Source of the DNA: a virus
DNA length: 64,000 nt
IMG/VR virus record: IMGVR_UViG_3300022562_001814
Span: 1 to 64,000 of that record
Strand: one strand, 5' to 3'
Shown: in pieces, positions 2,112 to 63,904 of the stretch
Numbering within the stretch: the first letter of the stretch is position 1
How the letters are laid out: each line of letters begins with the position of its first letter
Made by a program: the position numbers and the translations under genes
Notes under the pieces: generated by a model
Database searches by the model: none
What the model saw: the letters and a program-made list of their open reading frames with translations, nothing else
Told to the model about the DNA's origin: nothing

Positions 2112-3071
2112 TTGAGAAACAAAATAGTTAGATTTTCATTAGAACAAGAAAGAGAAATAATTTCTTTATATAAAGATGGTTATGGATCGGAAATATTAGG
2201 AAAACAATACGGTGTTTCAAGTTCTCGTATATGCTTGATTCTTAAAAAATATAGTATTTCTAAAAATAATAATAAATATTTATCAGTTCTGTCTAAAAAA
2301 GAAATATATTTAATTCTTAAATTATATCAAAATGGGGCAACTGTTGGTCAATTAGCTAAAGATTTTGGCGTATACCCTAATGCTATTAAAGGAATTTTAA
2401 CTCGTAGAGGTATTAAAATTAGGCAATATACTAAACCTAAGTTTCATTTTAATGAAGATTTTTTATTGATTAATAGCGCAGAATCTGCATATTTTTATGG
2501 ATTTATATTAGGAGATGGAACTTTTAATATTAAAAGCAACACCCCTTTCATCAAAATTTCAATAAATGAATTAGATTTATCTATTTTAAAAAAATTTTGC
2601 AAATGGTTAAGTATACCGTTAAATAAATTATATTATTTTGAAAAAATAAATCAATATCAATTAGATATTAGAAGTAAATATTTGTATCATATCGCTGATA
2701 CTTGGGGGCTCGTACCAAATAAAACTTATAATCCTAAAATACCACAATTAAATGATTTAAATCTGTTAAAATATTTTATAATTGGATTAATAGATGCTGA
2801 CGGATATGTTAAGTTTATTAAAAATAAACCATATCGAATAGAATTGGTAGGTAATAAAAAAATAATGGATTGGGTAGAGTTACAATTAAGAAATTTAGGA
2901 TTTATAGGACATATCATAAGATATTCTCCTGCTAATGTAGTTTGGTCGAGGCTTGTTGTAGGTAGAAAAAATGATGTAATTGAGTTAGCTAAAATATTAA
3001 ATATAAACTCCTGCCCATTTCTTCTTAAACGAAAGTGGCACGATTTGCAAAATTTTATTCTCGGGCAGTGA
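2112..3071 (+). CDS. LAGLIDADG homing endonuclease, free-standing
   Basis: The N-terminal ~100 residues hold two helix-turn-helix-like segments (SEILGKQYGVSSSRICLIL and VGQLAKDFGVYPNAIKGIL). They are followed by two LAGLIDADG-type motifs, AYFYGFILGDGTFN and FIIGLIDADGYVKF, which in this family form the dimer-like core carrying the metal-binding acidic residues. It therefore looks like an intact double-motif DNA endonuclease with an added DNA-binding head. The only suitable start is TTG at 2112, 18 bp after the topA stop; the ATG at 2099 is in another frame. No matching intron or intein flanks are visible, so it is most likely a free-standing mobile endonuclease in the topA-bS21 gap. Confidence 0.87.
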   Translation: MRNKIVRFSLEQEREIISLYKDGYGSEILGKQYGVSSSRICLILKKYSISKNNNKYLSVLSKKEIYLILKLYQNGATVGQLAKDFGVYPNAIKGILTRRGIKIRQYTKPKFHFNEDFLLINSAESAYFYGFILGDGTFNIKSNTPFIKISINELDLSILKKFCKWLSIPLNKLYYFEKINQYQLDIRSKYLYHIADTWGLVPNKTYNPKIPQLNDLNLLKYFIIGLIDADGYVKFIKNKPYRIELVGNKKIMDWVELQLRNLGFIGHIIRYSPANVVWSRLVVGRKNDVIELAKILNINSCPFLLKRKWHDLQNFILGQ

Positions 3072-5628: not shown

Positions 5629-5835
5629 ATGCTATGTTTAACTTGTTCTAAATTATCAGTATTATCTAGTAAAAGAATTTGCTTACGATGTAAAGGTGGG
5701 ATATATAATAATATGTCTGTTGTATGTGATAATTGTTCAAATAAAGAACAATTATGTTCTATTTGTTTAAAAAAAATATTTAATTCAAATAATAGAATAA
5801 GACCAAAATCAAATTGTAGTAGTTGTGGTAAATAA
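5629..5835 (+). CDS. Small cysteine-rich (zinc-ribbon-like) protein
   Basis: Sixty-eight residues with five CxxC pairs (CLTC, CLRC, CDNC, CSIC, CSSC), enough for two or more zinc sites of a ribbon or RING-like kind. There is no other recognisable signature. Its TAA stop shares one base with the ATG of the deformylase gene, so the two are translationally coupled and may act together. Confidence 0.72.
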   Translation: MLCLTCSKLSVLSSKRICLRCKGGIYNNMSVVCDNCSNKEQLCSICLKKIFNSNNRIRPKSNCSSCGK

Positions 5836-6365
5836 TGATTATAAATGATGAAAATATTTTAAGATCTTCAAATAAAGATGTGGAGCCTGAAGAAGCTGAA
5901 GCTCTTATTAAGACCTTGGAAAAAGAATTAAATTATTCTTTTTTGATGGGTAGACCTGGTATTGGATTGGCTTGTCCACAAATCGGAATAAACAAAAAAG
6001 CAGCCATAGTAAGAATTAATACAAATGGAGTTTATGATTTATCTGTAAATTTGATTAATGCTAAAATTGAAAAAGGATATAATCCTTTTATTTTTAAAAA
6101 CGAAGGATGTTTATCATTTCCCGATCAATTAAATGATACGACTAGATATCAAGAAATACATGTTATTAATAATGCTGTTAAGCCACATGCATTTATTGCA
6201 ACAGGATTATTTGCTGTAGCTATTCAGCATGAATTAGATCATTTAAATGGTATATTGTTTTTTGATAGGATTGTTAAAAAAAATGTAGCCTCTAAAATGA
6301 GACCAAATGATTTATGTATTTGTGGATCAGGTATTAAATATAAACGTTGTTGTAAATTAAAGTGA
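5835..6365 (+). CDS. def: Peptide deformylase with C-terminal SEC-C zinc motif
   Basis: Removes the N-terminal formyl group from nascent proteins. All three signature motifs are present: GIGLACPQIG (motif 1), EGCLSFP with metal-ligand Cys92 (motif 2), and QHELDH with His132, Glu133 and His136 (motif 3). The C-terminal ~25 residues form a SEC-C motif (LCICGSGIKYKRCC), the zinc module best known from the end of SecA and from some ribosome-associated proteins. Phage deformylases are known and are usually minimal; a SEC-C tail on one is unusual and may help docking to the ribosome or SecB/SecY machinery (inference). It starts on the last base of the upstream zinc-ribbon gene. Confidence 0.95.
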   Translation: MIINDENILRSSNKDVEPEEAEALIKTLEKELNYSFLMGRPGIGLACPQIGINKKAAIVRINTNGVYDLSVNLINAKIEKGYNPFIFKNEGCLSFPDQLNDTTRYQEIHVINNAVKPHAFIATGLFAVAIQHELDHLNGILFFDRIVKKNVASKMRPNDLCICGSGIKYKRCCKLK

Positions 6366-8003: not shown

Positions 8004-9191
8004 ATGAACTTATTAATTGTGGGCGATGTGCACCTCGGGAAGGGCCAGAATTTGGGGCGACAATCTATTGGATCCGCGCTTAACAGTAGAATTATTGATC
8101 AAATTAATTTATTGGACTGGGTGTATGATATTGCTGTTAATAAAAATATTAAACATATTATTCTAACCGGAGATGTATTTGAAGATCCTAAGCCTCATTA
8201 TAATCTGGTTGTGTTGTTTTTAGATTGGTTACAAAAATGTTCCGACTATAATATTCATGTCCATATTGTTGCTGGTAATCACGATATTTTGCGTAGTGGA
8301 CAATTCATTACTTCCCCATTAGATATTATATCTTCAGCAGATATTCAAAATGTTTTTGTTTATAAAAAATTAAATACTTTACATTTAGAAAATGTATCAA
8401 TAACATTTCTTCCGTTTAGAGATCGTAGATCCTTTAATACTGATTCAAATAGTGAAGCAATTTCTTTGCTTAGACAACAAATATTATATGAAAGTTCTAT
8501 TATTGATAATTTGAATTTAAAAATACTAATTGGTCATTTAGCTTTAGAAGGAGCCATTCCTGTTGGATATGAATTAGATGAATTAACCAATGAATTACAT
8601 TGTCCAATTGATATGTTTAAAAGGTATGATTATGTATTAATGGGACATGTTCATAAATTTCAATTTTTATCCGATGATTTAAATATAGGTCACATAGGTA
8701 GTTTGGATATATCTGATTTTGGAGAAGCAGATCAACAAAAATATATAGCTATAATTTCTCCAGATCAAAACGATAATAAAATAGATTATATACAAATACC
8801 AACTCGCCCATTAAAACATATTGTAATTAAATTAGAAGATAATATTAATGTAACCCAATTTATTGAAGAAAATTTGAGTAAATATGCAGATGAATTAAAC
8901 AATGCTATTGTGAAAGTATCAATTATTTTGCCAGCAAATTATTCATTATCCATAGATAGAAATTTAATAGAAAAATATATTTACAGCATGGGCGCATTTC
9001 ATATTTCTAAGATATCAGAAGAAAAAACTTTCGTTTCATTGAAAAAACAAATTAATGAATCGATAGATAATTCTGTAAATGAATTATCTGCCATTAAAAC
9101 GTATTCTTCTTTAGTGGATGAAAAAATTAGAATAGATTTTATTAATCTAGCTTCTACTATTGTTCAAGAATATAAGGAAAATTTAAAATAA
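8004..9191 (+). CDS. sbcD: SbcD/Mre11-type DNA repair nuclease (T4 gp47-like)
   Basis: Mn-dependent phosphoesterase subunit of the SbcCD/Mre11-Rad50 end-processing nuclease. Calcineurin-like metallophosphatase motifs occur in order: GDVHLG (D8, H10), LTGDVFEDP, VAGNHDILRSG, LIGHLALEG, then LMGHVHKFQ and IGHIGSLDISDFGE. At 395 residues it has the family's usual size, with a C-terminal capping/Rad50-binding part. It shares one base with the following sbcC gene, as expected for subunits made together. In phages this pair processes ends for recombination-dependent replication and helps degrade host DNA. Confidence 0.94.
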   Translation: MNLLIVGDVHLGKGQNLGRQSIGSALNSRIIDQINLLDWVYDIAVNKNIKHIILTGDVFEDPKPHYNLVVLFLDWLQKCSDYNIHVHIVAGNHDILRSGQFITSPLDIISSADIQNVFVYKKLNTLHLENVSITFLPFRDRRSFNTDSNSEAISLLRQQILYESSIIDNLNLKILIGHLALEGAIPVGYELDELTNELHCPIDMFKRYDYVLMGHVHKFQFLSDDLNIGHIGSLDISDFGEADQQKYIAIISPDQNDNKIDYIQIPTRPLKHIVIKLEDNINVTQFIEENLSKYADELNNAIVKVSIILPANYSLSIDRNLIEKYIYSMGAFHISKISEEKTFVSLKKQINESIDNSVNELSAIKTYSSLVDEKIRIDFINLASTIVQEYKENLK

Positions 9192-11365
9192 TGCAGCCTA
9201 TTAATTTATATATTAAAGATTTTTGTGGGCATTCAGAAACTACATTTTCGTTTAATGATTTTTCTAGTGCCCTAGTAATAGGTATAGTAAAAGATAATGA
9301 CAGATTTTCTAATGGTGCTGGGAAAAGCACTATATTTAATGCAATTGAATATGTTTTATTCAATGAAATACATTTTTCTTCATTAGAAAAAATAATAAGA
9401 GATGGATGTGATTTAGCAAAAGTTGAATTAGAATTTTATTCTTCCCTTAATAAAGAAGTTTATAAAATTATACGATCTAATAGTCGTAAAACCGGAACAG
9501 ATGTTAGATTATTTAGACAATTAGATAATAATTGGGAAGATCTAACACAGCGTAGAATATCTGATACCGAAAAAGAAATTGTTAAAATTATAGGATTTAA
9601 CTATAAGGCTTTTTGTGCATCGGTATTATTTAATCAATCTGGATCAGAAAATAATGTTCAAAAAGACTTTGGTAATTTGCCAGCTCTTACTCCAGAAAAA
9701 AGAAAATCCGTACTACGTGAAGTTTTACAATTAAATGTATATTCAAATTATGAGAAAATAGCAAAAAATAAATATGGCAAAATTTCTTCTGAATTAGAAA
9801 AACAAAAAATTATTATCTCTACTTTAGGAGATCCAACAAAAGATATTGTGGAATTAGAAAAATCTCACAAGAATATTTCTAAAATATTAGAAGAAAATAA
9901 TAATTCTTTAAATAAAATAAAAACAGAATTATCAGAAAATCAATTAAAATTTTCAATTCTATCAGAAAAAACATCTAATAGATTAAATAAAATTTCTCAT
10001 TTAGAATCACAAATTAGTGAAAATAAAAAACAAATTATTAAATATGAAGAATATTTAAATGATTTAAATCAAAAAGTTAATGAATTACCAACCGCCGCCG
10101 ACCAGGTTAAATCACAGATTAATCAGATTAATGATAATATTAAAAATATAAATATCGACAAAGATCAAATTATTGATATTCAATCAAAATTAAAATCGTT
10201 GACAGAAGTTGATTATAGTCAAATCACTCAGATTCAAATTTTGAATGCAAAAATTAAAGAATTTAAAAAACCAATTACCGATGATAAAGTGTGTACACAT
10301 TGTCATCAAGTGGTTTCACAAGAGCATAAAGAAAAATGGCTGATTTCGTCAAAACAACAAATTATTGATTTAGAAAATGAAAAATCTGAATTAATGAAAA
10401 AAAATAAATCAAATTTAAATGAAAAAAATAAATTACAATTAGAACTGGATTCCTCGCGTAAATTGGAATCAAACAAAGTAAATTTACAAGAAAAATTAAA
10501 ATATTTGCAATCTGATTTGACTAACAAAAGAGAATTATATTCTAATTATTCAAAATTAATTAAAGAACATTCTAATCTTCTAGAATTAAAAAATAAAGAA
10601 TTACAAAATTTGTTACAAGAATTAAATAAGGAAAAGGCACAAGATGATGAAGAGGTTTTATTAAATGTAAATAAATTTAAATTATTATTAATAAAACTTG
10701 ATAAAGAAAAAGTATCTTTAGAAGATAAAATTAAAACTAATATTAGTGAACAGGCAGTAATACAGCATAAAATATCTCAAAGTAAAAAAAATATAATAAA
10801 AATACAAGAATTAAATGATTCTATTTCTAGTTTAGAAAAATCATTAATTTTACATTCTAAAGTCGTGCAAGCTTTCGGCTCTAATGGTATTCCTTCATTA
10901 ATTACACATAGTATTTTAGATGAATTGCAAGAAGAATGTAATAAATGGTTATTAAAATTGAGACCGGGTCTTCAATTACAATTTGTTGTTATAAATGATA
11001 AAAATAACAAAGAAAAAGAAGATACTTTAGATATTCTATATTTTATAGATGGTTCTCAAAGAGAATATAAGCAATTATCTGGAGCCCAAAAAATTATTGT
11101 ATCTTTATCTATTAAATTATCTATTCTTTTTATTATGAATAAAAGATTAGGTATAGATATAAAACTAATGTTGTTGGATGAAGTAGATCAGGCATTAGAT
11201 GATGGTGGTACCGAAATATTTTCTGAAATAATTAAAATTATTCAGAACGATCTTAAAATTTTAGTAATAACTCATAATGATGAATTAAAACATAAGTTTT
11301 CACATGCTATTTTGGTAGAACAAGATGAAAATAATGTATCAAAAGGAAAATTAATTAATTGGTGA
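9191..11365 (+). CDS. sbcC: SbcC/Rad50-type ATPase (T4 gp46-like)
   Basis: ABC-type SMC-like ATPase partner of SbcD. Walker A is FSNGAGKSTIFNAIEYVLF near residue 40. Long coiled coils flank a zinc hook, C368-T-H-C371. The ABC signature is LSGAQKIIVSLSIKLS, and Walker B plus the D-loop is KLMLLDEVDQALDDGG near residue 660. A late HND motif (VITHNDE) is the switch histidine. At 724 residues the coiled coils are shorter than in E. coli SbcC (over 1,000 residues) and nearer T4 gp46. It overlaps sbcD by one base. Confidence 0.95.
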   Translation: MQPINLYIKDFCGHSETTFSFNDFSSALVIGIVKDNDRFSNGAGKSTIFNAIEYVLFNEIHFSSLEKIIRDGCDLAKVELEFYSSLNKEVYKIIRSNSRKTGTDVRLFRQLDNNWEDLTQRRISDTEKEIVKIIGFNYKAFCASVLFNQSGSENNVQKDFGNLPALTPEKRKSVLREVLQLNVYSNYEKIAKNKYGKISSELEKQKIIISTLGDPTKDIVELEKSHKNISKILEENNNSLNKIKTELSENQLKFSILSEKTSNRLNKISHLESQISENKKQIIKYEEYLNDLNQKVNELPTAADQVKSQINQINDNIKNINIDKDQIIDIQSKLKSLTEVDYSQITQIQILNAKIKEFKKPITDDKVCTHCHQVVSQEHKEKWLISSKQQIIDLENEKSELMKKNKSNLNEKNKLQLELDSSRKLESNKVNLQEKLKYLQSDLTNKRELYSNYSKLIKEHSNLLELKNKELQNLLQELNKEKAQDDEEVLLNVNKFKLLLIKLDKEKVSLEDKIKTNISEQAVIQHKISQSKKNIIKIQELNDSISSLEKSLILHSKVVQAFGSNGIPSLITHSILDELQEECNKWLLKLRPGLQLQFVVINDKNNKEKEDTLDILYFIDGSQREYKQLSGAQKIIVSLSIKLSILFIMNKRLGIDIKLMLLDEVDQALDDGGTEIFSEIIKIIQNDLKILVITHNDELKHKFSHAILVEQDENNVSKGKLINW

Positions 11366-12303: not shown

Positions 12304-13296
12304 ATGACTGTTATTAGCATTTCTGTAACTGAATCATCTGAACAATTAATTGCTGGGTTTCCTAAAACCGTTGCGCTAGAAACCAATATAGCTTCTACGA
12401 TTTTTTATACAATCGATGGTTCTGAGCCAACTAATTTATCATTAGTGTATTTAGATCCAATTGTATTGCCAACAGATGAATTATATTTTATAATTAAGGT
12501 ATTTGCTACTAATGGTATTGATTCTTCTCCCATTATTACATTAGAATATTCTACTAATATTCTTGAAAATGCAAGAATTCCGCATGCCACTGTTAGTAAT
12601 TTATCAAATAATAATTTATATTCATTATATCCTTTTGGGACAAATTCTCCTACTCAAATATTTGATTATCTTAATAGTGCAAATGCGGGAACTACTGTTA
12701 ATAGCCCAGAAATCCCAGATATAACTTTCGGATATGATGCTGATGGATATGGTATCGGAGCAGATCGTCCTTTAGATAATTATTTAAATATATATTCTAC
12801 AACTAATAAATTAAATCAAACCATAGATAATATTGGTAATTTGCCAGGAAAAGTTACCATTATTGGTAGAAGAACCGCTTTAGAATATAATCCAGAGGAA
12901 AGTAACCGTTCAGATGCTCTTTTTGATGCAAAAGCAATGGTAATTTTTCAAGATATAACAACCGAAGATCCTAGCAATCCTCCTCAAATTAATCCACAAT
13001 ATTTCTCGTTAGAGAATTTAGAAATTGTTAAAGATGGAGCTCCACTCAGAGCAAGTGGATTAGATGGTCCCACTATTACTGGCTCTTTTTTAAGATCCCA
13101 TTATAATCCAAGAACACAAATGGTTACATCTTATTATCGTGACAGTAGTACCAATCGTTGGATTATTTCAACGGCTCCTTATGAACCTAAGCAAAATGAT
13201 CCTGGTAATTGGTCAACTATGGTATTTTCAAGAAATGATCAAGGGGCAGGAAAAGTATTCGCTTGGAATTTATTTAGATACAGAACACTTACCTAA
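12304..13296 (+). CDS. Probable surface/structural protein with chitobiase-C-terminal-like domain
   Basis: The first ~85 residues match the CHB_HEX_C (chitobiase C-terminal) beta-sandwich pattern: STIFYTIDGSEPT, then a tyrosine and PI-x-LP, then FIIKVFATN. These small modules often occur on extracellular or virion proteins that meet polysaccharide. The remaining ~240 residues are beta-rich and unrecognised (GRRTALEYNPEESNRSDALF; WIISTAPYEPKQNDPG). It stands out among replication genes, which suggests either a moron-like insertion or a minor virion component. Confidence 0.65.
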   Translation: MTVISISVTESSEQLIAGFPKTVALETNIASTIFYTIDGSEPTNLSLVYLDPIVLPTDELYFIIKVFATNGIDSSPIITLEYSTNILENARIPHATVSNLSNNNLYSLYPFGTNSPTQIFDYLNSANAGTTVNSPEIPDITFGYDADGYGIGADRPLDNYLNIYSTTNKLNQTIDNIGNLPGKVTIIGRRTALEYNPEESNRSDALFDAKAMVIFQDITTEDPSNPPQINPQYFSLENLEIVKDGAPLRASGLDGPTITGSFLRSHYNPRTQMVTSYYRDSSTNRWIISTAPYEPKQNDPGNWSTMVFSRNDQGAGKVFAWNLFRYRTLT

Positions 13297-13352: not shown

Positions 13353-14138
13353 ATGTCAAATTTTATCAAGCTATCGGTCTCAAAAACTGCTACTTTTCAA
13401 AGCTGTAAGGCAAAATATAAGTTTGCTTATATTCAAAAACTTCCTAGAAAAGAATGGGAATATCATTTATTTGGTAGATTTGTTCATAGAGTTTTAGAAT
13501 TATTTCATTTGTCATTTATTAATGGTTCAAATAATTCTTATAATGAAGAAATGTCAAACTCTTTTAATACTGCTTTAGAAGAATTTAAAAATAAACTTAA
13601 TTTAACAGCTAAAGATGAAGCTTTTCAAATTTTAAGTATTTATCTTAAAAAAATAAATAAAGAAGAAATTGCTAAAGTCCTAGATGTAGAAAAAACATTT
13701 AATTTAATAATTAATGAGGGACTTACTTTAACAGGAATGATAGATAGAGTGCAATTAGATGAAGACGGCATCTATCATATTATAGATTATAAAACAAGTA
13801 AATCGTCCGCTTATCTAAAAAATGATGTATTACAATTATTAACATACGCATATGTTATATATATGGAACATCCAGAACTTACAAAAGTTAGGGTTTCATA
13901 TATTATGTTGCGACAAAATTGTGAATTTATTACAAAAGAATTTGATTTAAAAGAGATCTTGTCTGTCAAAAATATATATGAAAAATATGCCGAAGAAATG
14001 TTAAATGAAGAAGAATTTAAGCCGAAACCTCAAGTTCTTTGTCGTTTCTGTGATTATTCTAATGTATGTGAAGAGGGAAAGGAATTTATATCTAAACAAT
14101 ATATTGCAGGACCTATAAAATATACTAAAAAAATGTAG
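13353..14138 (+). CDS. PD-(D/E)XK exonuclease, Cas4/RecB/AddB-like, with Fe-S cysteines
   Basis: An N-terminal SKTATFQSCKAKYKFAYIQK carries Cys18. The nuclease core follows: EYHLFGRFVHRVLELFH (motif with His), LTGMIDRVQLDEDG (Asp) and YHIIDYKTSKS (D-Y-K, motifs II/III). QLLTYAYVIY completes it (motif QxxxY). The C-terminus has CRFCDYSNVC. Cys18 plus these three cysteines are the four ligands of the 4Fe-4S cluster typical of Cas4/AddB-type nucleases. At 261 residues it is a single-domain enzyme with no helicase part. It probably resects DNA ends during recombination together with SbcCD and the RecA-like protein. Confidence 0.88.
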   Translation: MSNFIKLSVSKTATFQSCKAKYKFAYIQKLPRKEWEYHLFGRFVHRVLELFHLSFINGSNNSYNEEMSNSFNTALEEFKNKLNLTAKDEAFQILSIYLKKINKEEIAKVLDVEKTFNLIINEGLTLTGMIDRVQLDEDGIYHIIDYKTSKSSAYLKNDVLQLLTYAYVIYMEHPELTKVRVSYIMLRQNCEFITKEFDLKEILSVKNIYEKYAEEMLNEEEFKPKPQVLCRFCDYSNVCEEGKEFISKQYIAGPIKYTKKM

Positions 14139-14189: not shown

Positions 14190-15452
14190 ATGTTAATTGA
14201 AGTTAAAGAAATAGAATATTGTAGATTAAACGTTAAATTTGAAGGTGACGAAGAAAACGTTAAAAATAAAGAATATGAAATGTTACAACATTTTAAACAA
14301 GGTAAAGTCCCAGGTTTTAGAGAAGGTAAGGCGACAACAGAAGCTGTTAAATTTCATTTTAAAAATCAGATCAACGAAGCTGTTAAAAATGAATTAGCTT
14401 ATCAAGCCTTTCAAACGGTTATAGCTGAAAAAAATATTAAACCATTTGGACAGCCACAATTTCTCGCTATTAATTTAGATGGTTCTAAATTTAAATGTGA
14501 ATTTTGTGTTAATCAGGTTCCTAATATTGAATTATCTCAATATAAAAATTTTGAATTACCAAAGGGGACTACGCCCAATTCGATAGAAATGTCGGAAAAA
14601 ATATTACAAGAATTAAGAGTTAGAAATGGTGAAACACTACCTTTCTCCGATGAAGACTTTATTCAATTAGGTGATACGGCAATTATTAATTATATAGGTT
14701 ACTTGCCTGGCGAAGAAGTGCCAACAATTAAAAAAGATGGAGAAATTTTTGTAGTTGGAAAAGCTCATGCAGATGCTTTTAATGATAACATATTGGGTAT
14801 GAAATTAGGTGAATCTAGAGAATTTACTACAATTCTTTCTTTGGATTCGGCCGCTCAGCATATTGCTGGAAAAGAAGTACGTTTTGTAATTGAATTAGCT
14901 ATGGCATCAAAATCTGAGCCCGCGCCTTTAGATGATGAATTGGCAACCAAAGTTGGATGTAAAAATCTCGAAGAGCTAAATAATATAGTTCAAGGCATGT
15001 CTTCTAATAGAGTTAAAGAATTAGAGACCAAATATTTATCTGATCAAGTTGCCGCTAGACTATTAGAAAGTCATAATTTTGAATTACCATCTTGGTTAAC
15101 AAGTTTTGAAGCTAAATTATTTGCAAAACAACAAGGTCATGCGTGGGAATCTTTATCTGATGAACACAAGAGTAATTTTCTTAAAATGGCAGAACAAAAT
15201 GTTAAATTATCTATTATTTTAGATAAAGTGCGGGAAATAGAACCCGATGCACAATTAACAGATGAAGAAGTATTTTCTATTATTAAACAGAGCATATCAA
15301 AATATAAAACAATGCTTAACATGGCAGATAAATCAGATGAAGAGGTATTAAGTAAAATAGCTGAATCAGGATATACGAATGCTTTAATTTCTCAAGTTAG
15401 AGATGATGCAACTATGGATTTTATAATTAAAAATTCTTCTATCTTAGAATAA
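14190..15452 (+). CDS. tig: Trigger factor-like ribosome-associated chaperone
   Basis: The whole trigger factor architecture is visible. The ribosome-binding domain carries the signature loop VPGFREGKA at residues 40-48 (E. coli GFRxGKxP at about the same position), which docks on uL23 at the exit tunnel. A FKBP-like domain follows (about residues 150-240: LGDTAIINYIGYLPGEEVP, ILGMKLGESREF, VRFVIELAMA). The long helical C-terminal arms follow (APLDDELATKVG-x-N-LEEL is a family hallmark). Length 420 against 432 in E. coli. It binds nascent chains, so a phage copy would protect or select phage proteins. Trigger factor is rare in phages as far as I know. Confidence 0.92.
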   Translation: MLIEVKEIEYCRLNVKFEGDEENVKNKEYEMLQHFKQGKVPGFREGKATTEAVKFHFKNQINEAVKNELAYQAFQTVIAEKNIKPFGQPQFLAINLDGSKFKCEFCVNQVPNIELSQYKNFELPKGTTPNSIEMSEKILQELRVRNGETLPFSDEDFIQLGDTAIINYIGYLPGEEVPTIKKDGEIFVVGKAHADAFNDNILGMKLGESREFTTILSLDSAAQHIAGKEVRFVIELAMASKSEPAPLDDELATKVGCKNLEELNNIVQGMSSNRVKELETKYLSDQVAARLLESHNFELPSWLTSFEAKLFAKQQGHAWESLSDEHKSNFLKMAEQNVKLSIILDKVREIEPDAQLTDEEVFSIIKQSISKYKTMLNMADKSDEEVLSKIAESGYTNALISQVRDDATMDFIIKNSSILE

Positions 15453-15464
15453 TGAGGTAATCAA

Positions 15465-15755
15465 ATGAAAGACAAACATTTCCCAGAAAAATATAAAAAG
15501 AAATTAGATAATTTTGCTCAAGGGTATATGGATAATGTAGATTCTTCTGACACGGAAGAGATTAAAAAATTAATTTTATCTTCTGAAAGAAATTTATATG
15601 AAATTGAATACGAAAAAGATAATAATCCAAAAATTTTGAAAATGAAAGAGGATCTTAAGGCAGAAATGTCTCCATTTACAGAGGCAAAACACACCGAAAC
15701 GGCTAAAATTAAATATTGTCTTTTCACGTTAGAGGGTCGTGGAGTTCGTATTTGA
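15465..15755 (+). CDS. Hypothetical protein
   Basis: A 96-residue, strongly charged helical protein (EIKKLILSSERNLYEIEYEK; KMKEDLKAEMSPF). A good AGG ribosome site precedes the ATG. No family is assigned. Such small charged proteins often sit beside recombination genes in T4-like phages, but that is context only. The stop overlaps the TTG start of the next gene. Confidence 0.7.
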   Translation: MKDKHFPEKYKKKLDNFAQGYMDNVDSSDTEEIKKLILSSERNLYEIEYEKDNNPKILKMKEDLKAEMSPFTEAKHTETAKIKYCLFTLEGRGVRI

Positions 15756-16036
15756 TTAAAATAAGTAAAAAAGAATTACAGGCTTGTTGTGGTAAAAAAC
15801 AAATAATTTGGAAATTAAATATTCCAATCAAAAAAGATTACTTGTCTATACTACAACAGGCTGGATTTCATTATGTAAAAACATATTTTGATGCCGGAAT
15901 GATGTATATTGAAGATAAAAATTTAATAGCTACTGGAATTTTTGGTTTAAATGAAATTACTGTTAAATGTAAAACTAAAGAATGTACAGATAGTGCAACT
16001 AAATTGGAACAAATAATTTTAACCAAATTTAATTAA
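15752..16036 (+). CDS. Hypothetical protein, TTG start
   Basis: The frame opens further upstream, but TTG at 15752 is the better start: GGAG sits 7 bases ahead, and the TTGA overlaps the upstream TGA stop. The product is then 94 residues (MIKISKKELQACCGKKQ...). It looks like a small alpha/beta protein (KKDYLSILQQAGFHYVKTYF; LIATGIFGLNEITVKCK). No family recognised. It shares one base with the M41 protease gene downstream. Confidence 0.68.
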   Translation: MIKISKKELQACCGKKQIIWKLNIPIKKDYLSILQQAGFHYVKTYFDAGMMYIEDKNLIATGIFGLNEITVKCKTKECTDSATKLEQIILTKFN

Positions 16037-16680
16037 TGAATGTTGTTAAAAAACAAGCTCATGATTATGAATTAATTGCTATGAGTTGGCATGAAGCTGC
16101 TCATACAATTTGTGGTTTATACAATTTCACTAAAATTTATAATGTTCATGTTATGTCAGATAAACACACAAATGGCAATACATTATATGAAATATGTGAT
16201 CCAGATAATATTGAAAATAAATTATTAGCTAAAATATTATTAATATTTGAAGTACAAACATTATATGCCGGATTAGTGGGTGAAAAACTTTATTATAAAG
16301 AAATATGTGGTTCTGATAATTTTCCTATGCATCTTCGTATCGGTTCATCTAACGATATTCAAGATGCTGCTAGAATTATTCATAAATATAATTTAGCAAA
16401 TCCTGGTAAAGCTAGGTTTTTGTTTAAAAAACAAGTCCAAAATGATACTAAAAATATTTTAACAGAATATTGGGACGATATTAGATTAGTGGCGCACGTC
16501 CTTTATAAAAATAAAGAATTAGAATATGATGAATTAAAATATTTCTTAACAAGAAAATCTATTAATAAAGAATTTTGGAGAGATAGATTTAAATATATAA
16601 AGCTTATTTATGGAGGTAATGAATTAGATGAAAAATATTTAAAAGATATAATTTTACAAAATTCCGTTATTATTATGTAA
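16036..16680 (+). CDS. Stand-alone M41 (FtsH-type) zinc metalloprotease domain
   Basis: Residues 16-30 carry the FtsH-like zinc motif MSWHEAAHTICGLYN (His19, Glu20, His23). About 80 residues later GLVGEKLYYKE and GSSNDIQDAARIIHKYN match the FtsH segment 'GGRxAEE...GAsnDixxAT', whose Asp (Asp107 here) is the third zinc ligand. There is no AAA+ ATPase domain and no membrane segment, so it is only the ~210-residue peptidase part. It could act on already unfolded chains or borrow a host ATPase. It lies between the trigger factor and polymerase genes, overlapping its neighbour by one base. Confidence 0.8.
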   Translation: MNVVKKQAHDYELIAMSWHEAAHTICGLYNFTKIYNVHVMSDKHTNGNTLYEICDPDNIENKLLAKILLIFEVQTLYAGLVGEKLYYKEICGSDNFPMHLRIGSSNDIQDAARIIHKYNLANPGKARFLFKKQVQNDTKNILTEYWDDIRLVAHVLYKNKELEYDELKYFLTRKSINKEFWRDRFKYIKLIYGGNELDEKYLKDIILQNSVIIM

Positions 16681-16765: not shown

Positions 16766-19700
16766 ATGAGTTTTGTTAGTTTACACAATCATTCTTATTA
16801 TTCTATTCTTGATGCTTTGCCATCACCTAAAGAACTTTTTCGTAGGGCTAAAGAATTAAATCAACCCGCCCTTGCTTTAACAGATCATGGTTCGTTCGCC
16901 GGCGCTTGGGATGCATATAAGGCATCAAAAGAAACTGGTGTTAAATTAATTATTGGATCTGAATTTTATTTTTTATCTGATGCTTCTAAAAAAGATGAAA
17001 AAGTTAGACACATAATTTTATTAGCTAAAAATAATTCTGGTTATAGAAATTTATTATCTTTAAATAGATCAGGATTTGACAATCCTATTATTACTGGTAG
17101 GAAAGTTATTCCAATTATTGATTGGAATCTATTATCTAAATATTCTGATGGGGTTATTTGCCTAACGGCTTGTGGTAATGGTATAATTGGACAGCATATC
17201 AATGCAAAAAATTTTGCTGCGGCAGAAAATGATATCAAACATCTTATAGATATTTTTGGAACCGATAATTTGGGTATAGAGGTTCAACCACACGCTTTAA
17301 GTAGGCAGGCAACGCTTTATCACAATGGTATTAATCAGGTTTTTACTAATTTTCATTTAATAAAATTAGCAGAAAAATTTAATCTTAAAGTAGTACCAAC
17401 AACAAATACTCATTATCTTAAAAAAGAACATGCTCCCATGCATGATGTATTATTAGCAATTGGTGCTATGCAACCAATTTATTCTAATGCAAGATTAAAA
17501 TATCCGGTACATGAATTTTATCTTAAATCATATGAAGAAGTAAAAGCATTTTTTGCTAGAAATTTTGGCGATTCCTTTGCCGAAGAAATTTGTAAAAACT
17601 CATTATATTTTGCTGACAAATGCGAAGAGCCAGATTGGATTGATCCTAAATTTTCTAATCCATATGGAAAAGAATTGCCAGTTTTTGCTGTTAAAGAAAC
17701 AAGTGATTATGATAAATTTCAAGATTGGTTAGTCAAACAGTCGGATAAAATACAAAAATTGTCGGAAGATTCGGCTTATCTAAGATTTAAATGTTATGAG
17801 GCTTTTGATCTTAAATTTAAGAATAAATTATCGCTTATAAAGCACAAAGAATATATTGAAAGAATAGAAGAAGAGCTATCTGTTTTAGATTATCAGGGAT
17901 TTAGCTCATATATGTTAATTGTTGCAGATTATATTAATTGGGCAAGAAAAAATAATATTGGAATAGGTCCTGGTAGAGGGAGCGTTGGGGGCTGTTTTAT
18001 TGCATATTTGCTAGGAATTCATAAAGCAGATTCCATACGATATGGACTTATTTTTCCAAGATTTCAAAATAGAGAACGTTCCAGCCCACCAGATATCGAT
18101 CAAGATATAGCAGCTTCAGATAGAGAAAAGGTCATATCATATATTCAACAAAAATATGGACAAGATAAAGTAGCTTTCGTTTCTAATTTTAGTCGTATTA
18201 CTCCCAAAGTTTACGCAAGAGATATTGCAAGATCTTTAGAATTTGGCGGGAACAGAAAAGAAGCTGTTAATATTGGGAATTCAATTGCTGATTCAATTTC
18301 TAAAGAATCTAAAAATTCAATAGATTTTAATGATCTTAAATTAAGTCCTTTATTTATGGAATATGTAAAAAGATATCCTAATCTTGCTTCTAATTCTGAA
18401 ATTTTAGGTAAAATTAGAAATTTTTCTACTCATGCAGCCGCACTCGTTATTTCTAATAGACCTCTTATAGGGTTAGTTCCGGTTAGAAAAGATAAAGATG
18501 GGCATCAAGCTTTAGAATATGAAAAATATAATACAGAAGAAAATGGTCTTCTTAAAATAGATGTTTTGGGATTATCAACTTTGGATTTGATAGAACAAAC
18601 TATTTTACTTATTAATAAAAACAAAAAGAATAAACCAATATCTTTAGAAGATATTGATTTTGAAGATTATGATAAAAAAACATATGATCTTATTTCTAAA
18701 GGAGATACTTACGGGGTATTTCAATTAGGAACAAGTGCCGGTACTATTGATTTATGTAAAAAAATAAAACCTAAAAATATAGAAGATTTGGCAATTATTA
18801 CAACTTTGGCCCGCCCCGCCGCCAAAAATATTATAGATGATTTTATTAAAACACGAGAAGGTAAGCGTGAATTTAAATTATTACATCCTTCATTAAGAAA
18901 TGCTTTTGAAAAAACATATGGGTTTGGTTTGTTTGATGAATCAATTTTACAACTAGGTAAAGATGTAGCTGGTTGGTCTCTTAATGAATCTGATCGTATT
19001 AGAAAAATGATTAAGGAAAAAGGTAAAGATCCAAATAAAGCCAAAAAACTAAGAGAAGAATTTATTGATGGTGCAATCAAAAATGGTATTGGTCGAACCA
19101 TGGCATCTAAAATTTGGGATGAAGAAATTAATAAATTCCAAGGGTATACATTTAATAAATCACATGCCGTACTATATTCTTTTATTTCATATATTACGGC
19201 TTATTTAAAGGCCCATTATCCTGTAGAATTTTTACTAGCTAATTTAATAGCTGAAAATAATTCTAATACCCCAGATGCAGAGGAAAATATAGATAAAGCT
19301 AAAATGGAATTACGTAGATATGGAGTTAATATACTTCCTCCAGATATTAATAAATCTGAAATGGAATATCAATTATTGAATAATAATACGTTATTGACCG
19401 GATTAGATGCTTTAAAATATGTAGGACATGATGCTATTCAAGACATTATTAATAAAAGACCGTTTACTAGTTTTGATGATTTTATGTTAAGAGTAGATAC
19501 AAGAAAAGTAAGATCTTCAGCAATTCAGGCGTTAGCTGCAAGCGGGTGCTTAGATATTTTTAATATTACAAGAAGATCTATTTATTTATATTGTTCTGAT
19601 TATCGTAAAAAATTACAAGTTTGGCTCAAAAAACATGATCCTAAAACTGAAAAATTTAATTTTCCTTGGCCAAATGAATCTGAATGGTCTAAATCAGAAT

Positions 19701-20284
19701 TATTTGCTTTAGAAAAACATTATTTAGGAGAAGCTTTTATTTGTCCTAAAAAAGAAGCATTCGGAACCTTCTTTTTTACAAAAACACATGCTAATATTTC
19801 AACAATTAAATTAAGTAAAAATAGAACATTTTTACCATCAATTAAAGCTGAAATTAAAACAATTTTTGAATTAAAAATAAAAAAGGAAAATAGTAGGTTA
19901 ATAGGCCAGGAAATGGCTAAAGTTGGTATAGAAGACGAATTTGGAATTCAATGTAATTTAACTATATTTCCCGATCGTTGGCAAGAAGTTAAAAAAAGAA
20001 TGAAAATTAATGGTAAAGGGAAAGCGTATTTTGAACCTGGATGTGTTATTCATTTTGCCGGAACTTGTAATTTATATGAAAATGAAATGGGTGTTATTTT
20101 AGAAACATTATTAGAAAGTATGCCTCCTCCAGCGCTTCCACGTGATTTAAAAGCTAGAAAAGTTGCTATTAAAGATTCTGTAACTATCTCGGAAAATTCT
20201 GATTTAATTACCGAGTTAGAAGATCAGTTATTTACAGAAGGTCTTATAGATTTGGATGAAGATCCGTTTTCTTTGGATATATAA
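16766..20284 (+). CDS. dnaE: DNA polymerase III alpha subunit (C-family DnaE)
   Basis: Replicative polymerase of bacterial C-family type. The PHP domain is at the N-terminus (VSLHNHSYYSILD; LALTDHGSFAGAWDA; IGSEFYF; TTNTHYL). The palm has GIGPGRGSVGGCFIAYLLGI, the catalytic pair D443/D445 in PPDIDQDI, and the third Asp D599 in LKIDVLGLSTLD. FSTHAAALVIS and FNKSHAVLYSFISY are further DnaE hallmarks. A helix-hairpin-helix and an OB-like part (VGIEDEFGIQCNLTIFPDRW) follow. At 1172 residues it is full length. It sits alone behind an 85-bp gap with a GAGAGG ribosome site, and the neighbouring ssb, recA and primase genes belong to the same replication set. Confidence 0.96.
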   Translation: MSFVSLHNHSYYSILDALPSPKELFRRAKELNQPALALTDHGSFAGAWDAYKASKETGVKLIIGSEFYFLSDASKKDEKVRHIILLAKNNSGYRNLLSLNRSGFDNPIITGRKVIPIIDWNLLSKYSDGVICLTACGNGIIGQHINAKNFAAAENDIKHLIDIFGTDNLGIEVQPHALSRQATLYHNGINQVFTNFHLIKLAEKFNLKVVPTTNTHYLKKEHAPMHDVLLAIGAMQPIYSNARLKYPVHEFYLKSYEEVKAFFARNFGDSFAEEICKNSLYFADKCEEPDWIDPKFSNPYGKELPVFAVKETSDYDKFQDWLVKQSDKIQKLSEDSAYLRFKCYEAFDLKFKNKLSLIKHKEYIERIEEELSVLDYQGFSSYMLIVADYINWARKNNIGIGPGRGSVGGCFIAYLLGIHKADSIRYGLIFPRFQNRERSSPPDIDQDIAASDREKVISYIQQKYGQDKVAFVSNFSRITPKVYARDIARSLEFGGNRKEAVNIGNSIADSISKESKNSIDFNDLKLSPLFMEYVKRYPNLASNSEILGKIRNFSTHAAALVISNRPLIGLVPVRKDKDGHQALEYEKYNTEENGLLKIDVLGLSTLDLIEQTILLINKNKKNKPISLEDIDFEDYDKKTYDLISKGDTYGVFQLGTSAGTIDLCKKIKPKNIEDLAIITTLARPAAKNIIDDFIKTREGKREFKLLHPSLRNAFEKTYGFGLFDESILQLGKDVAGWSLNESDRIRKMIKEKGKDPNKAKKLREEFIDGAIKNGIGRTMASKIWDEEINKFQGYTFNKSHAVLYSFISYITAYLKAHYPVEFLLANLIAENNSNTPDAEENIDKAKMELRRYGVNILPPDINKSEMEYQLLNNNTLLTGLDALKYVGHDAIQDIINKRPFTSFDDFMLRVDTRKVRSSAIQALAASGCLDIFNITRRSIYLYCSDYRKKLQVWLKKHDPKTEKFNFPWPNESEWSKSELFALEKHYLGEAFICPKKEAFGTFFFTKTHANISTIKLSKNRTFLPSIKAEIKTIFELKIKKENSRLIGQEMAKVGIEDEFGIQCNLTIFPDRWQEVKKRMKINGKGKAYFEPGCVIHFAGTCNLYENEMGVILETLLESMPPPALPRDLKARKVAIKDSVTISENSDLITELEDQLFTEGLIDLDEDPFSLDI

Positions 20285-24419: not shown

Positions 24420-24986
24420 ATGAAAATAATGTCTTTTGATGTTTCTAGCTCGACAATAGGCTGGGCGGTATTTAATATTAAAAATAATAAAATAAATCTT
24501 TTTGATTCTGGGTTTTTTAAACCTATCAAAAAAAATAATATTTTTGAAAATCTTTCTTATGTGAGAGAGCAGATAAAAAATTTATTAGATGAATATAATC
24601 CAGATGAAATAGCTATTGAAGAGATTGCAAGATTTATGCCAAAATTAAGTTCTGCTAATACTATTATCGTGTTAGCATTGTATAATAGAATGGTCGGTTT
24701 AACAGTTTTTGATCATTTAAAAAAAATTCCTTATTTATATAATGTTATGACGATTCGACATAGTATTAAATTATCTAAAGAATTACCCAAAAAAGAAGAA
24801 ATTCCTGAACTTGTAGAAACGATTTTAAATATTACTTTACCAAGAAAATACACCAAAAATGGAATCATCAAATCCGAATTATATGATGAAGCTGATGCGA
24901 TTGCGTGTGGGCTTTGTCACTGGGTGAAAACTAATAATTTACCTTTAATTAAAATAACATCAAGTAAAGTCAGGAAGAAAAAATGA
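24420..24986 (+). CDS. ruvC: RuvC-like Holliday junction resolvase / RNase H-fold nuclease
   Basis: RNase H-fold resolvase. Asp7 lies in MSFDVSSSTIGWAVF (first catalytic Asp with the RuvC 'D-x-S-x-x-x-G-W/Y' pattern). The second motif is EIAIEEIARF (Glu). The end motif is YDEADAIACGL (family DxxDAxA), giving the fourth acidic residue. At 188 residues it matches RuvC (about 170). In the cell it would resolve branched DNA before packaging. It directly follows the ssb terminator, and its stop overlaps the dnaJ start by 4 bp. Confidence 0.87.
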   Translation: MKIMSFDVSSSTIGWAVFNIKNNKINLFDSGFFKPIKKNNIFENLSYVREQIKNLLDEYNPDEIAIEEIARFMPKLSSANTIIVLALYNRMVGLTVFDHLKKIPYLYNVMTIRHSIKLSKELPKKEEIPELVETILNITLPRKYTKNGIIKSELYDEADAIACGLCHWVKTNNLPLIKITSSKVRKKK

Positions 24987-25966
24987 AAATTCAAGAAGCT
25001 TATAAGGTATTAGAAAGCTCATCAGATATTTCAGATGAAGATTTAAAAATTAAATATAAAGATATGGCAAAGAAATATCATCCTGATATTTATAAAAAGG
25101 AACCAGATAAATTTAAAAAAATTAATGAAGCTTATCAATTTATTTTAGATTATAGAAAAAATCCTGAAAAATATGAACCTAATATGAAAAATGGATTTTG
25201 GGGTAGGGTTCCTGATATAGCTAATGATTTTTTTATTAATTTTGGTTTTGAAAATGAGTGGTCTAAACCAAAAGAAATTAAACCAATATTTGTTTCTATC
25301 AATTTAAATTTTAAAGAATCGGTTTTAGGATGCAGCAAAGAAATTAATTATACTAGAAATATTAAATGTAAAGACTGTCAGGGAGCTGGTATTAAACGTA
25401 AGGGTAATGGTTGTGAAACGTGTGACGGGTTTGGTAGATCAACTATTAACAATAAAGGAATGATTTTTCAAACAAAATGTTCAAAATGTCAAGGTAAAAA
25501 TGTCACGCAAAATACTTGTGATAAATGTAAAGGCAAATGTGTAATTAATGAAAATAAACAAGGAAATATTCACGTTCCAGCCGGCATTAAAAATGAAGAA
25601 ATATTAAGAGTTAATGGTGCTGGAAACTTTGTGGGAAGAACTTTTTTTGCTGATGAATATACAGATTTACATATCAAGGTACATGTTAAGTCATACAAGG
25701 ATATGTATATAGAAAATAATAATGTTATTTCAAAATTAAATATTTCATTATTGGAGGCTTTAGAGGGCAAAGAACAAGAAATAGAAACTATTTATGGTAA
25801 TAAGAATGTTACTATTCCACCTAAAACTAAACATTTAGATCAAATTAAAATTCCTAAATGTGGTGTTAATAATACTAACGGAATGCATGTAATTAAATTA
25901 TTTATCGAATATCCTCAAGATGTAACAGATATAATTGGAGTACTTAAAAATGATGTTCATAATTAA
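24983..25966 (+). CDS. dnaJ: DnaJ (Hsp40) co-chaperone
   Basis: The J-domain occupies residues 1-55 with HPD at 33-35 (MAKKYHPDIYKK), the DnaK-stimulating motif. A glycine/aromatic linker follows, then four CxxC zinc repeats (CKDCQGAG, CETCDGFG, CSKCQGK, CDKCKGK; family CxxCxGxG). C-terminal substrate-binding beta domains complete the protein (VPAGIKNEEILRVNGAGN; LNISLLEALEGKEQEI). At 327 residues it is shorter than E. coli DnaJ (376), mostly in the G/F region. No DnaK gene is seen, so it presumably recruits host DnaK to phage proteins or replication complexes. Confidence 0.93.
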   Translation: MKIQEAYKVLESSSDISDEDLKIKYKDMAKKYHPDIYKKEPDKFKKINEAYQFILDYRKNPEKYEPNMKNGFWGRVPDIANDFFINFGFENEWSKPKEIKPIFVSINLNFKESVLGCSKEINYTRNIKCKDCQGAGIKRKGNGCETCDGFGRSTINNKGMIFQTKCSKCQGKNVTQNTCDKCKGKCVINENKQGNIHVPAGIKNEEILRVNGAGNFVGRTFFADEYTDLHIKVHVKSYKDMYIENNNVISKLNISLLEALEGKEQEIETIYGNKNVTIPPKTKHLDQIKIPKCGVNNTNGMHVIKLFIEYPQDVTDIIGVLKNDVHN

Positions 25967-27079: not shown

Positions 27080-28006
27080 ATGAGTAAATTCAATAAAATT
27101 CCAAATAGATCTGATCACTATCAAAATATTTTATTAGAGATAGCATATCCACACGAACTTTTAGATATCTTTCCAGACAGCGATTCTATTTACAAAAAAC
27201 TTAATCCATTTTCTTATAATGATGAAATAGCTGAACTTCATGATCTTTTAAATAAAGAGTTATGGCGTATTATAGAAGATCATTTAACAGATAGACAAAA
27301 ACAGGTCGTTAAATTATATGCATCTGGTAAAACTCAAATTGAAATTGCAAAAATATTGGGAGTTAATCAGTCATCTATTACAAAATGTTTATCAGGTGAT
27401 ACTTTAATTTATACTAGCGCAGGTAATGCTAAACTTGGCGATTTATGGTTAGGGTGGGAGTGGAATCCATATACAATAATGAACTATCAAGTAGCTTGTA
27501 TGGATCGGAAACTTAACATTAAATACAATACAATTAATAATGTGATTTGTCAAGGAGAAAAGCCTATATTAGAAATTACAACTATTTCCGGAAAAACTAT
27601 CAAAGCAACCCCAGATCATAAATTTTACACCGCACAGGGGTGGGTAGAACTACAAACAATAATAGAAAATAATCTACAGTTAGCAATACTTAATGATATT
27701 CCGACAAAATTAGATGATATTGGTCCGGAGATCGGGTGGGAAAATATTATTAAATATGAAAATAAATCAAATGAGGTTGTGTTTGATTTAAGTATGAAAG
27801 CACCAAATCATAATTTTATTGCAAATGGAATAATAACACATAATTGTATAAATGGTAATGTTGATTACAAAAATAAAGATAGTAAAGGAAAACCAATTAC
27901 TTATGGTGGTGTTAAGTTAAAATTACAGAAAATAGCTAAAGAAGATAAAGTAATTAACGAAATTTTACAAAAAATTGCTGATATTAGAGATAATGATCCA
28001 TTCTAA
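27080..28006 (+). CDS. Sigma-region-4/LuxR-like helix-turn-helix protein interrupted by a mini-intein
   Basis: The host protein (extein, about 155 residues) has a helix-turn-helix like sigma region 4: LTDRQKQVVKLYASGKTQIE, then IAKILGVNQSSITK. An in-frame intein occupies residues 103-255. After splicing, SITK joins CINGNVDYKNKDSKG, which continues to a lysine-rich helical C-terminus (LQKIAKEDKVINEILQKIAD). It could be a phage transcription regulator. The insertion lies at the recognition helix, so the protein is presumably inactive until spliced. Confidence 0.83.
   Translation: MSKFNKIPNRSDHYQNILLEIAYPHELLDIFPDSDSIYKKLNPFSYNDEIAELHDLLNKELWRIIEDHLTDRQKQVVKLYASGKTQIEIAKILGVNQSSITKCLSGDTLIYTSAGNAKLGDLWLGWEWNPYTIMNYQVACMDRKLNIKYNTINNVICQGEKPILEITTISGKTIKATPDHKFYTAQGWVELQTIIENNLQLAILNDIPTKLDDIGPEIGWENIIKYENKSNEVVFDLSMKAPNHNFIANGIITHNCINGNVDYKNKDSKGKPITYGGVKLKLQKIAKEDKVINEILQKIADIRDNDPF
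27386..27844 (+). mobile_element. Mini-intein (153 residues, no endonuclease)
   Basis: Block A CLSGDTLIYTSAGNAKLGDL starts at Cys103. Block B is TIKATPDHKFYTAQGW (TxxH). Blocks F/G are VFDLSMKAPNHNFIANGIIT ending in HN, and the +1 residue is Cys256. All residues needed for splicing are present. The length of 153 residues leaves no room for a homing endonuclease, so it is a splicing-only mini-intein. Confidence 0.92.
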
Positions 28007-63511: not shown

Positions 63512-63904
63512 GTGGTAGATAGAAAATCCAAAGTTTTAACTTTTCCAGAATTTTTACCTAAAGAATTATATAAACATTTTATACGTGGCATGATAGATGG
63601 GGATGGTTGGATTTATATTCCAACTAATAATAGGTATTGTCCTAATGTAGGATTACTTGCGACTAGAAATATTAATGATAAATTACAAGAGATTTTTAAT
63701 CAATTAGGGCTGATCTCATATCTCTGTAAAGCATATAAACAAGATATTAATGAAATGTGCGAGATACGTATTAAAAATTATAAACAGTCAAAAGTTCTGC
63801 TTGACTGACTCTATCAAGATTCTACCATTCATTTAAATCGAAAATATAAACTTTATCAAATCTTGAATGATAAATATAATAATTTGAGAGAACAAAATAA
63901 ATAA
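63512..63904 (+). pseudogene. Truncated LAGLIDADG endonuclease with in-frame TGA
   Basis: The open part (98 codons from GTG 63512) carries one LAGLIDADG-type motif, HFIRGMIDGDGWIYI. The frame is stopped by TGA at 63806-63808, yet it continues in frame with LYQDSTIHLNRKYKLYQILN to TAA 63902, the usual end of such enzymes ('lldWLYxdatixLxRKy'). So a TGG tryptophan has most likely become TGA. The first LAGLIDADG half is also missing, since a stop lies just upstream (63491). An inactive remnant behind the capsid terminator. Confidence 0.82.

Follow-up and report, generated by a model that had tools for sequence, protein, structure and literature searches.

The trigger factor gene and its neighbourhood

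The window analysed here comprises the first 64 kb of a 200,737-base IMG/VR virus record, in which a terminase is present and whose gene set, read by eye, is typical of a large phage; no tRNA genes were found within the window. All genes with coordinates in this paragraph lie on the plus strand. At 14190-15452, an open reading frame with an ATG start encodes a protein of 420 amino acids that Pfam, NCBIfam and its predicted fold identify as a trigger factor (TF). The gene is part of a conserved block in which Pfam recognises an SbcD-like nuclease subunit (8004-9191), an SbcC-like ATPase (9191-11365) and an Fn3_assoc-domain protein (12304-13296), the last having no phage relative in INPHARED at an E-value of 1e-5, and in which a PD-(D/E)XK nuclease (13353-14138) is the upstream neighbour of the TF gene. 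Downstream lie two small genes, s1 (15465-15755; 96 amino acids, beginning 12 bp after the TF gene, with no assigned function) and s2 (15716-16036; 106 amino acids as called), followed by a stand-alone M41-like zinc protease without AAA+ domain (16036-16680; 214 amino acids) and, as a conserved downstream neighbour, the DNA polymerase III alpha subunit DnaE (16766-20284; 1172 amino acids). The two small genes overlap each other and follow closely on the TF gene, the gaps between TF, s1, s2 and the M41-like gene being 12, -40 and -1 bp. Further afield, the window encodes a peptide deformylase with a C-terminal SEC-C-type metal knuckle (5835-6365), approximately 8 kb upstream of the TF gene, and a DnaJ-type co-chaperone (24983-25966).

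Assignment of the protein to the TF family is firm. The whole protein scores 191 bits against NCBIfam TIGR00115, above the curated cut-off of 180.2, which is exceeded in 25 of the 27 records of the TF-carrying phage group. The ribosome-binding N-domain (residues ~1-112) matches Pfam Trigger_N with 67.4 bits (cut-off 22.2) and is followed by a PPIase-type domain (residues ~150-243) and then by the C-terminal arm domain, which is recognised both by Pfam Trigger_C (26.5 bits, cut-off 22.7) and by the full-length fold. Pfam FKBP_C has no match in the window TF, whereas 51 of 63 family members match it; in the structural model, residues ~153-244 nevertheless align with the PPIase domains of FKBP, SlyD and TF proteins, with Z-scores of about 10-12.

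The AlphaFold (AF2) model of the window TF, built from an alignment of 63 sequences (the window TF and 62 relatives), reached a mean pLDDT of 91 and a pTM of 0.74, and its top Foldseek match was E. coli TF (E 4.4e-21). Alignment of the full model to the E. coli structure 1w26 with VIA-align covered 402 residues (Z 20.4) at an rmsd of 8.3 A, which, together with the pTM, indicates matching domains whose arrangement relative to one another is either different or uncertain. Taken alone, the N-domain superposes on 1oms with a Z-score of 13.7 and an rmsd of 2.1 A over 114 residues. An earlier note on this DNA, made from the sequence alone, had claimed a full-length TF with all three domains and had proposed comparing a predicted structure with E. 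coli TF; the claim is borne out, with Trigger_N and Trigger_C above their cut-offs, the PPIase domain recognised by fold, and a structural alignment that runs end to end and includes the ribosome-binding domain. Sequence identity is 17-21% to six aligned cellular TFs and 17% to 1w26. The likeness to bacterial TF (E. coli Tig, 1w26) lies in the three-domain layout, the position of the docking loop and the full-length fold, whereas the phage gene differs by its place in a replication block.

Distribution and descent of the phage trigger factors

A scan of viral contigs with the window TF as a single protein found no relative, while a profile scan based on the docking loop found 60 viral loci and two loop-blind scans found 47 and 7. 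The first profile scan had the docking loop as its pattern and so gave biased loop counts, which were discarded; all loop statistics given below are drawn from loop-blind and TF-blind scans only. After removal of identical TFs, synteny was compared across 64 loci, comprising the window and 63 others. The gene order SbcD-SbcC-Fn3-nuclease-TF-s1-s2-M41-DnaE was constant among these loci, with the Fn3-type protein, the PD-(D/E)XK nuclease and DnaE each present in 63 of 64, s1 in 54, s2 in 47 and the M41-like protease in 42. Median gaps were 12 bp between TF and s1, -1 bp between s1 and s2, 3 bp between s2 and the protease gene, and 107 bp between the latter and DnaE. The TF is carried by many IMG/VR records, up to 481 kb in size, of one uncultured huge-phage group, and exactly one copy is present in each of the 27 whole records of the TF group. 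PHROG 26774, which is matched by all 63 aligned phage TFs, covers the family and is listed there without function.

We additionally carried out a census that was blind to TF, scanning with the PD-(D/E)XK nuclease and inspecting flanks of up to 10 kb per side at the resulting 55 loci. All 39 close loci, with a nuclease identity of at least 43% to that of the window, carried TF, s1, s2, the M41-like protease and DnaE. The coupling of TF to small genes and to a protease that the earlier note had described thus holds throughout these loci, with one correction: what it called a protease domain is a separate 214-residue ORF and not part of the TF. In the 16 sister loci (nuclease identity 30-36%), SbcD, SbcC, Fn3 and the nuclease were all present, and none of the 16 contained TF, s1, s2, the M41-like protease or a nearby deformylase at E 1e-3 within flanks of up to 10 kb. 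TF was also absent from all four sister records that were searched whole. A third group of loci (L061-L067) carries TF plus an extra gene between the nuclease and TF, and this extra gene is homologous to the gene directly after the nuclease in TF-less sisters (four loci compared with six sisters). This arrangement would be expected if TF had been inserted ahead of DnaE in a shared ancestor. Alternatively, TF may have been lost in the sister phages. Two TF-less sisters (L208:12814-18972 and L210:12802-18846) encode a protein of ~2000 amino acids where the TF-group phages have the genes from TF to DnaE.

In a tree of 101 rows (35 phage, 66 cellular), with cellular sequences from Bacteroidota, Pseudomonadota, Patescibacteria, Bacillota, Chloroflexota and others, the phage TFs formed one side of a branch with an SH-aLRT support of 99. 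The split was stable when the tree was reduced to 62 rows (19 phage, 43 cellular) by omitting 16 of the 35 phage rows, three long-branch and three further cellular rows, and alternate rows within three cellular groups. The phylogeny that had been suggested as a check therefore yields a single phage TF clade, separate from every cellular TF sampled (98/96), which would represent an old lineage that diverged outside the sampled cellular ones. Pairwise dN/dS values (NG86; 27 pair values from pairs of 72-98% identity, some rows repeating one contig) gave medians of 0.106 for the whole gene, 0.067 (the lowest) for the N-domain, 0.112 for the PPIase part and 0.121 for the C-domain, which indicates that the phage TFs evolve under purifying selection.

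Scanning a genome collection revealed one further member, on a 383-kb contig in a Chitinophagales bin (L134) that also has its own TF; the bin is weak evidence of the host. The other 32 matches from this collection were 21-36% identical and shorter or weaker, with cellular-type loops where these were read. In INPHARED, 20 records matched the window TF, and 25 and 31 matched two other family members, all below 60% identity. Seven of the 20 were examined: six of their TFs were cellular-like in the alignment, and the five included in the tree grouped with cellular TFs. On the basis of these seven of 20 records, we presume that INPHARED lacks the phage TF family. The sole annotated record among the seven (H12) has TF in a bacterial tig-clpP-clpX context and, with clpP, clpX, metX and leuA in the flanks, resembles a bacterial contig, as would be expected if phage-labelled TFs were recent host captures or artefacts of assembly or binning. 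We reject this explanation for the family of the window, where it is extremely improbable in view of the synteny in 39 of 39 census loci, the presence of one TF copy in each of the 27 records, the separation from all sampled cellular TFs and a dN/dS of about 0.1. TF belongs to the core genes of this huge-phage group and has a single origin, which sets it apart from a one-off capture. The annotated INPHARED record, a 220-kb entry labelled as Acinetobacter phage MD-2021a (CAKLQH020000005.1), may be mislabelled, as the stretch examined carries the bacterial housekeeping genes tig, clpP, clpX, metX and leuA.

Docking loop and PPIase domain

The docking-loop motif GFREGK is encoded at 14313-14330 and occupies TF residues 42-47. 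Its E. coli counterpart, GFRKGK, occupies residues 43-48, so that the loop lies where the earlier note had placed it, offset by one residue. In the available text of PMC11725819, the share of E. coli TF that is bound to ribosomes falls from 85% to 20% when FRK is replaced by AAA. The third position of the FRK motif varies among the 138 motif-bearing cellular TFs in our alignment (P in 63, K in 51, R in 10, Q in 7, A in 5, and E and I in one each), and Glu45 of the window TF is therefore no argument against docking.

Among the 34 distinct TFs of the TF-blind census, Gly42 and Arg44 were present in all, Lys47 in 30 and Phe43 in 28, the Phe being replaced in the remaining six by Asn (three), Cys, Ser or Tyr (one each). 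When 18 TFs from the loop-blind scan were added, giving 52 distinct sequences, Arg44 was found in 52, Phe43 in 46 and the full GFRxGK string in 36. The full string was present in 108 of 140 cellular TFs compared with 20 of the 34 census phage TFs, which means that an intact loop, as had been claimed, characterises the branch of the window but not every member of the family. As judged from these alignments, it is Gly and Arg that stay constant in the phage TF loop. The natural variants with Asn, Cys or Ser in place of Phe would offer a test system for the purpose of ribosome docking. Cellular and phage TFs also differ just beyond the loop: 138 of 140 cellular sequences have Pro two places after the GK, whereas the phage proteins mostly have Ser, Thr or Asn, with Pro in 10 of 52.

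Mean column entropy was 0.65 bits in the loop, compared with 1.37 in the N-domain, 1.54 in the PPIase domain and 1.66 in the rest of the protein. Conservation of the loop could stem from domain folding instead of docking, and a related possibility is that the phage TF does its main work away from the ribosome, where it would assist the assembly of large phage proteins, in the first place its neighbours DnaE and SbcC, with the loop being kept for the fold or for a dimer. Consistent with such a role, TF is fixed within the replication block, its placement among replication genes rather than translation genes counting against a ribosomal function, and some subgroups without the loop Phe still keep TF. 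We nevertheless consider an off-ribosome chaperone unlikely, because the loop is more conserved than every domain average, Arg44 is invariant in all 52 distinct TFs, and a deformylase is linked to TF in 26 of 27 records.

For the PPIase domain, we take F168, F177, I195, F198, Y221 and F233 as the relevant residues, with positions matched to the E. coli sequence. The E. coli residues F168, F177, I195, P196, G197, F198, Y221 and F233 correspond to Y, V, A, D, A, F, S and F in the window TF, and the equivalent of Tyr221 is retained in one of 52 phage TFs compared with 75 of 140 cellular TFs. These substitutions suggest that the isomerase activity of the window TF would be weak or absent. Since the active site is partly replaced, holding or shielding of chains, and not proline isomerisation, is likely to be the main activity; the PPIase domain is dispensable in E. 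coli TF. A retained loop combined with a partly replaced active site would also fit a decoy at the tunnel exit that deprives host proteins of TF, SRP or SecA. This seems to us very improbable, as the arm domain is also under purifying selection (0.121), a constraint for which a protein that only plugged the exit would have no use.

Maturation enzymes, the M41-like protease and the proposed role

The deformylase scores 106.5 bits against TIGR00079, passing the cut-off of 103.95, and contains the motifs EGCLS and HExDH. Its C-terminus, CICGSGIKYKRCC, is a knuckle of the SEC-C type. Deformylases of the block relatives have the same kind of tail, in the strict form C-CGS-KK--KC in 14 of 30 census deformylases and as variants in the others. 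In all 26 TF-positive records that encode it, the deformylase shares the strand of TF and precedes it by 8.3-12.2 kb (computed by hand), and it was found in one of the four sister records. The E. coli deformylase binds the ribosome via its C-terminal helix. The knuckle of the phage enzyme, which we take to be of the same kind as the metal-binding domain of SecA, is possibly a ribosome tether by analogy with that domain, which binds ribosomes near uL23/uL29 according to PMC6620043. Peptide deformylase has already been reported in huge phages, in the accessible part of PMC7162821; the likeness lies in a phage-encoded ribosome-exit enzyme, and the enzyme described here differs by its C-terminal SEC-C-type knuckle and its location 8-12 kb from TF.

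The record of the window also encodes a type I methionine aminopeptidase (record positions 152,418-153,221; L009:12418-13221), which scores 183 bits against TIGR00500 (cut-off 171.35). The enzyme was present in three of the five TF-positive records examined, namely the record of the window, G139 and G157, and was not found in G144, in 20 stretches of G163 covering 400 of its 473 kb, or in the sister record G167. A scan with a three-row profile returned three loci only, owing to the narrow patterns of such a profile.

The M41-like protein scores 23.5 bits against Pfam M41, below the gathering cut-off of 29.9, and 17 of 25 members match that family at E 1e-3. Its model (pLDDT 92.7) is that of an FtsH protease domain and aligns with FtsH-family structures at Z-scores of 13-17, the match to 2ce7_F having a Z of 16.0 and an rmsd of 2.1 A over 145 residues. 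The zinc ligands, HExxH and Asp107, are invariant in all 25 aligned members, and HExxH is present at all 39 close census loci. No fused AAA+ unfoldase was found in the 214-residue ORF, where the alignment covers the protease domain only. The likeness to FtsH (peptidase M41) consists in the fold and in HExxH plus Asp, whereas the phage protein differs in having no AAA+ or membrane part, and the member in the window in falling below the Pfam cut-off. Regarding the small genes, s1 had no PHROG match in any of 18 members, and relatives of s2 are shorter (median 94 amino acids), so that the true s2 start may lie downstream of the called one; conserved Cys pairs in s2 suggest a metal knuckle.

TF, s1, s2 and the protease could form a quality-control unit in which TF, or s1 and s2, would pass unfolded chains to the protease, perhaps removing host or misfolded proteins. 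Such a unit would account for the tight packing of the four genes ahead of a 107-bp gap to DnaE, for their joint presence in 39 of 39 close census loci and joint absence from 16 of 16 sister loci, and for the invariant zinc ligands. We regard it as decidedly unlikely, given that the M41-like gene is present in only 42 of 64 loci, that TF, s1 and s2 mostly stay where it is missing, and that the protease lacks an unfoldase domain.

We propose instead that this bona fide TF, acquired once, probably docks on the host ribosome and shields phage chains beside the phage deformylase. In this scheme, the TF gene entered the phage lineage once and became a fixed core gene of the uncultured huge-phage group. 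During infection, TF would dock at the tunnel exit of the host ribosome via the N-domain loop (Arg44, and Phe43 in most members), its arm domain cradling phage nascent chains, and would act with a phage deformylase, which the metal knuckle would tether, and with a phage methionine aminopeptidase in those members that have one. Phage factors would thereby take care of the deformylation, trimming and shielding of phage proteins. Points that weigh against the scheme are the replacement of the loop Phe in six of 34 census TFs, the inconstant presence of the aminopeptidase and the large overall rmsd to E. coli TF. uL23 is the docking site of TF; ribosome binding by the phage TF, its docking at uL23, competition with host TF and an altered choice of folded chains (as the earlier note had envisaged), the substrates and cooperation with the deformylase are inferred. 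The fixed neighbourhood of TF with protein-maturing enzymes suggests that these phages tend their own newly made proteins, and a phage-encoded maturation set at the tunnel exit is likely. We are more doubtful about a wider version, a possible line at the tunnel exit consisting of the knuckle-tethered deformylase, the aminopeptidase in some members, and TF, with s1 and s2 linking TF to the FtsH-type protease, such that nascent phage proteins would be processed, folded or destroyed on host ribosomes.

A full-text literature search, in which subscription papers were mostly beyond reach, returned no report of a phage-encoded TF, which is no proof that none has been published. It did return a host TF beside a prophage (PMC6811365, in part) and the use of TF as a solubility tag (PMC12697855, in part). 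As far as the available text of the huge-phage paper PMC7162821 extends, phage-carried ribosomal proteins, initiation and elongation factors and deformylase are known, and the terms "trigger factor" and "chaperone" do not occur in its main text. Plant Tig2, as described in the accessible part of PMC11731035, is likewise a TF derivative in a new setting that retains the ribosome-binding domain; it consists of that domain only and serves plastid ribosome biogenesis, whereas the phage TF keeps all three domains. What seems to be new here is a TF of a huge-phage group that is fixed, syntenic and of a single clade, together with its link to an M41-like protease and a deformylase. With a ribosome-exit chaperone among the fixed core genes of such a group, co-translational folding would join the functions that phages take over.

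The zinc domain of the DnaJ-type co-chaperone was detected at E 1e-3 in 24 of 27 TF-positive records, above the Pfam cut-off in 11, and in none of four sister records; no HSP70 was found in the record of the window. At 27080-28006, a sigma-factor-like ORF, read by eye, apparently enters an intein-like start (CLSGDTLIYT...) and is followed by small ORFs. Homing-endonuclease-like ORFs, also read by eye, lie at 2112-3071 and, directly after a capsid-like gene, at 63512-63808. Shine-Dalgarno-like 4-mers precede 26 of 56 starts, compared with a shuffled mean of 7.6.
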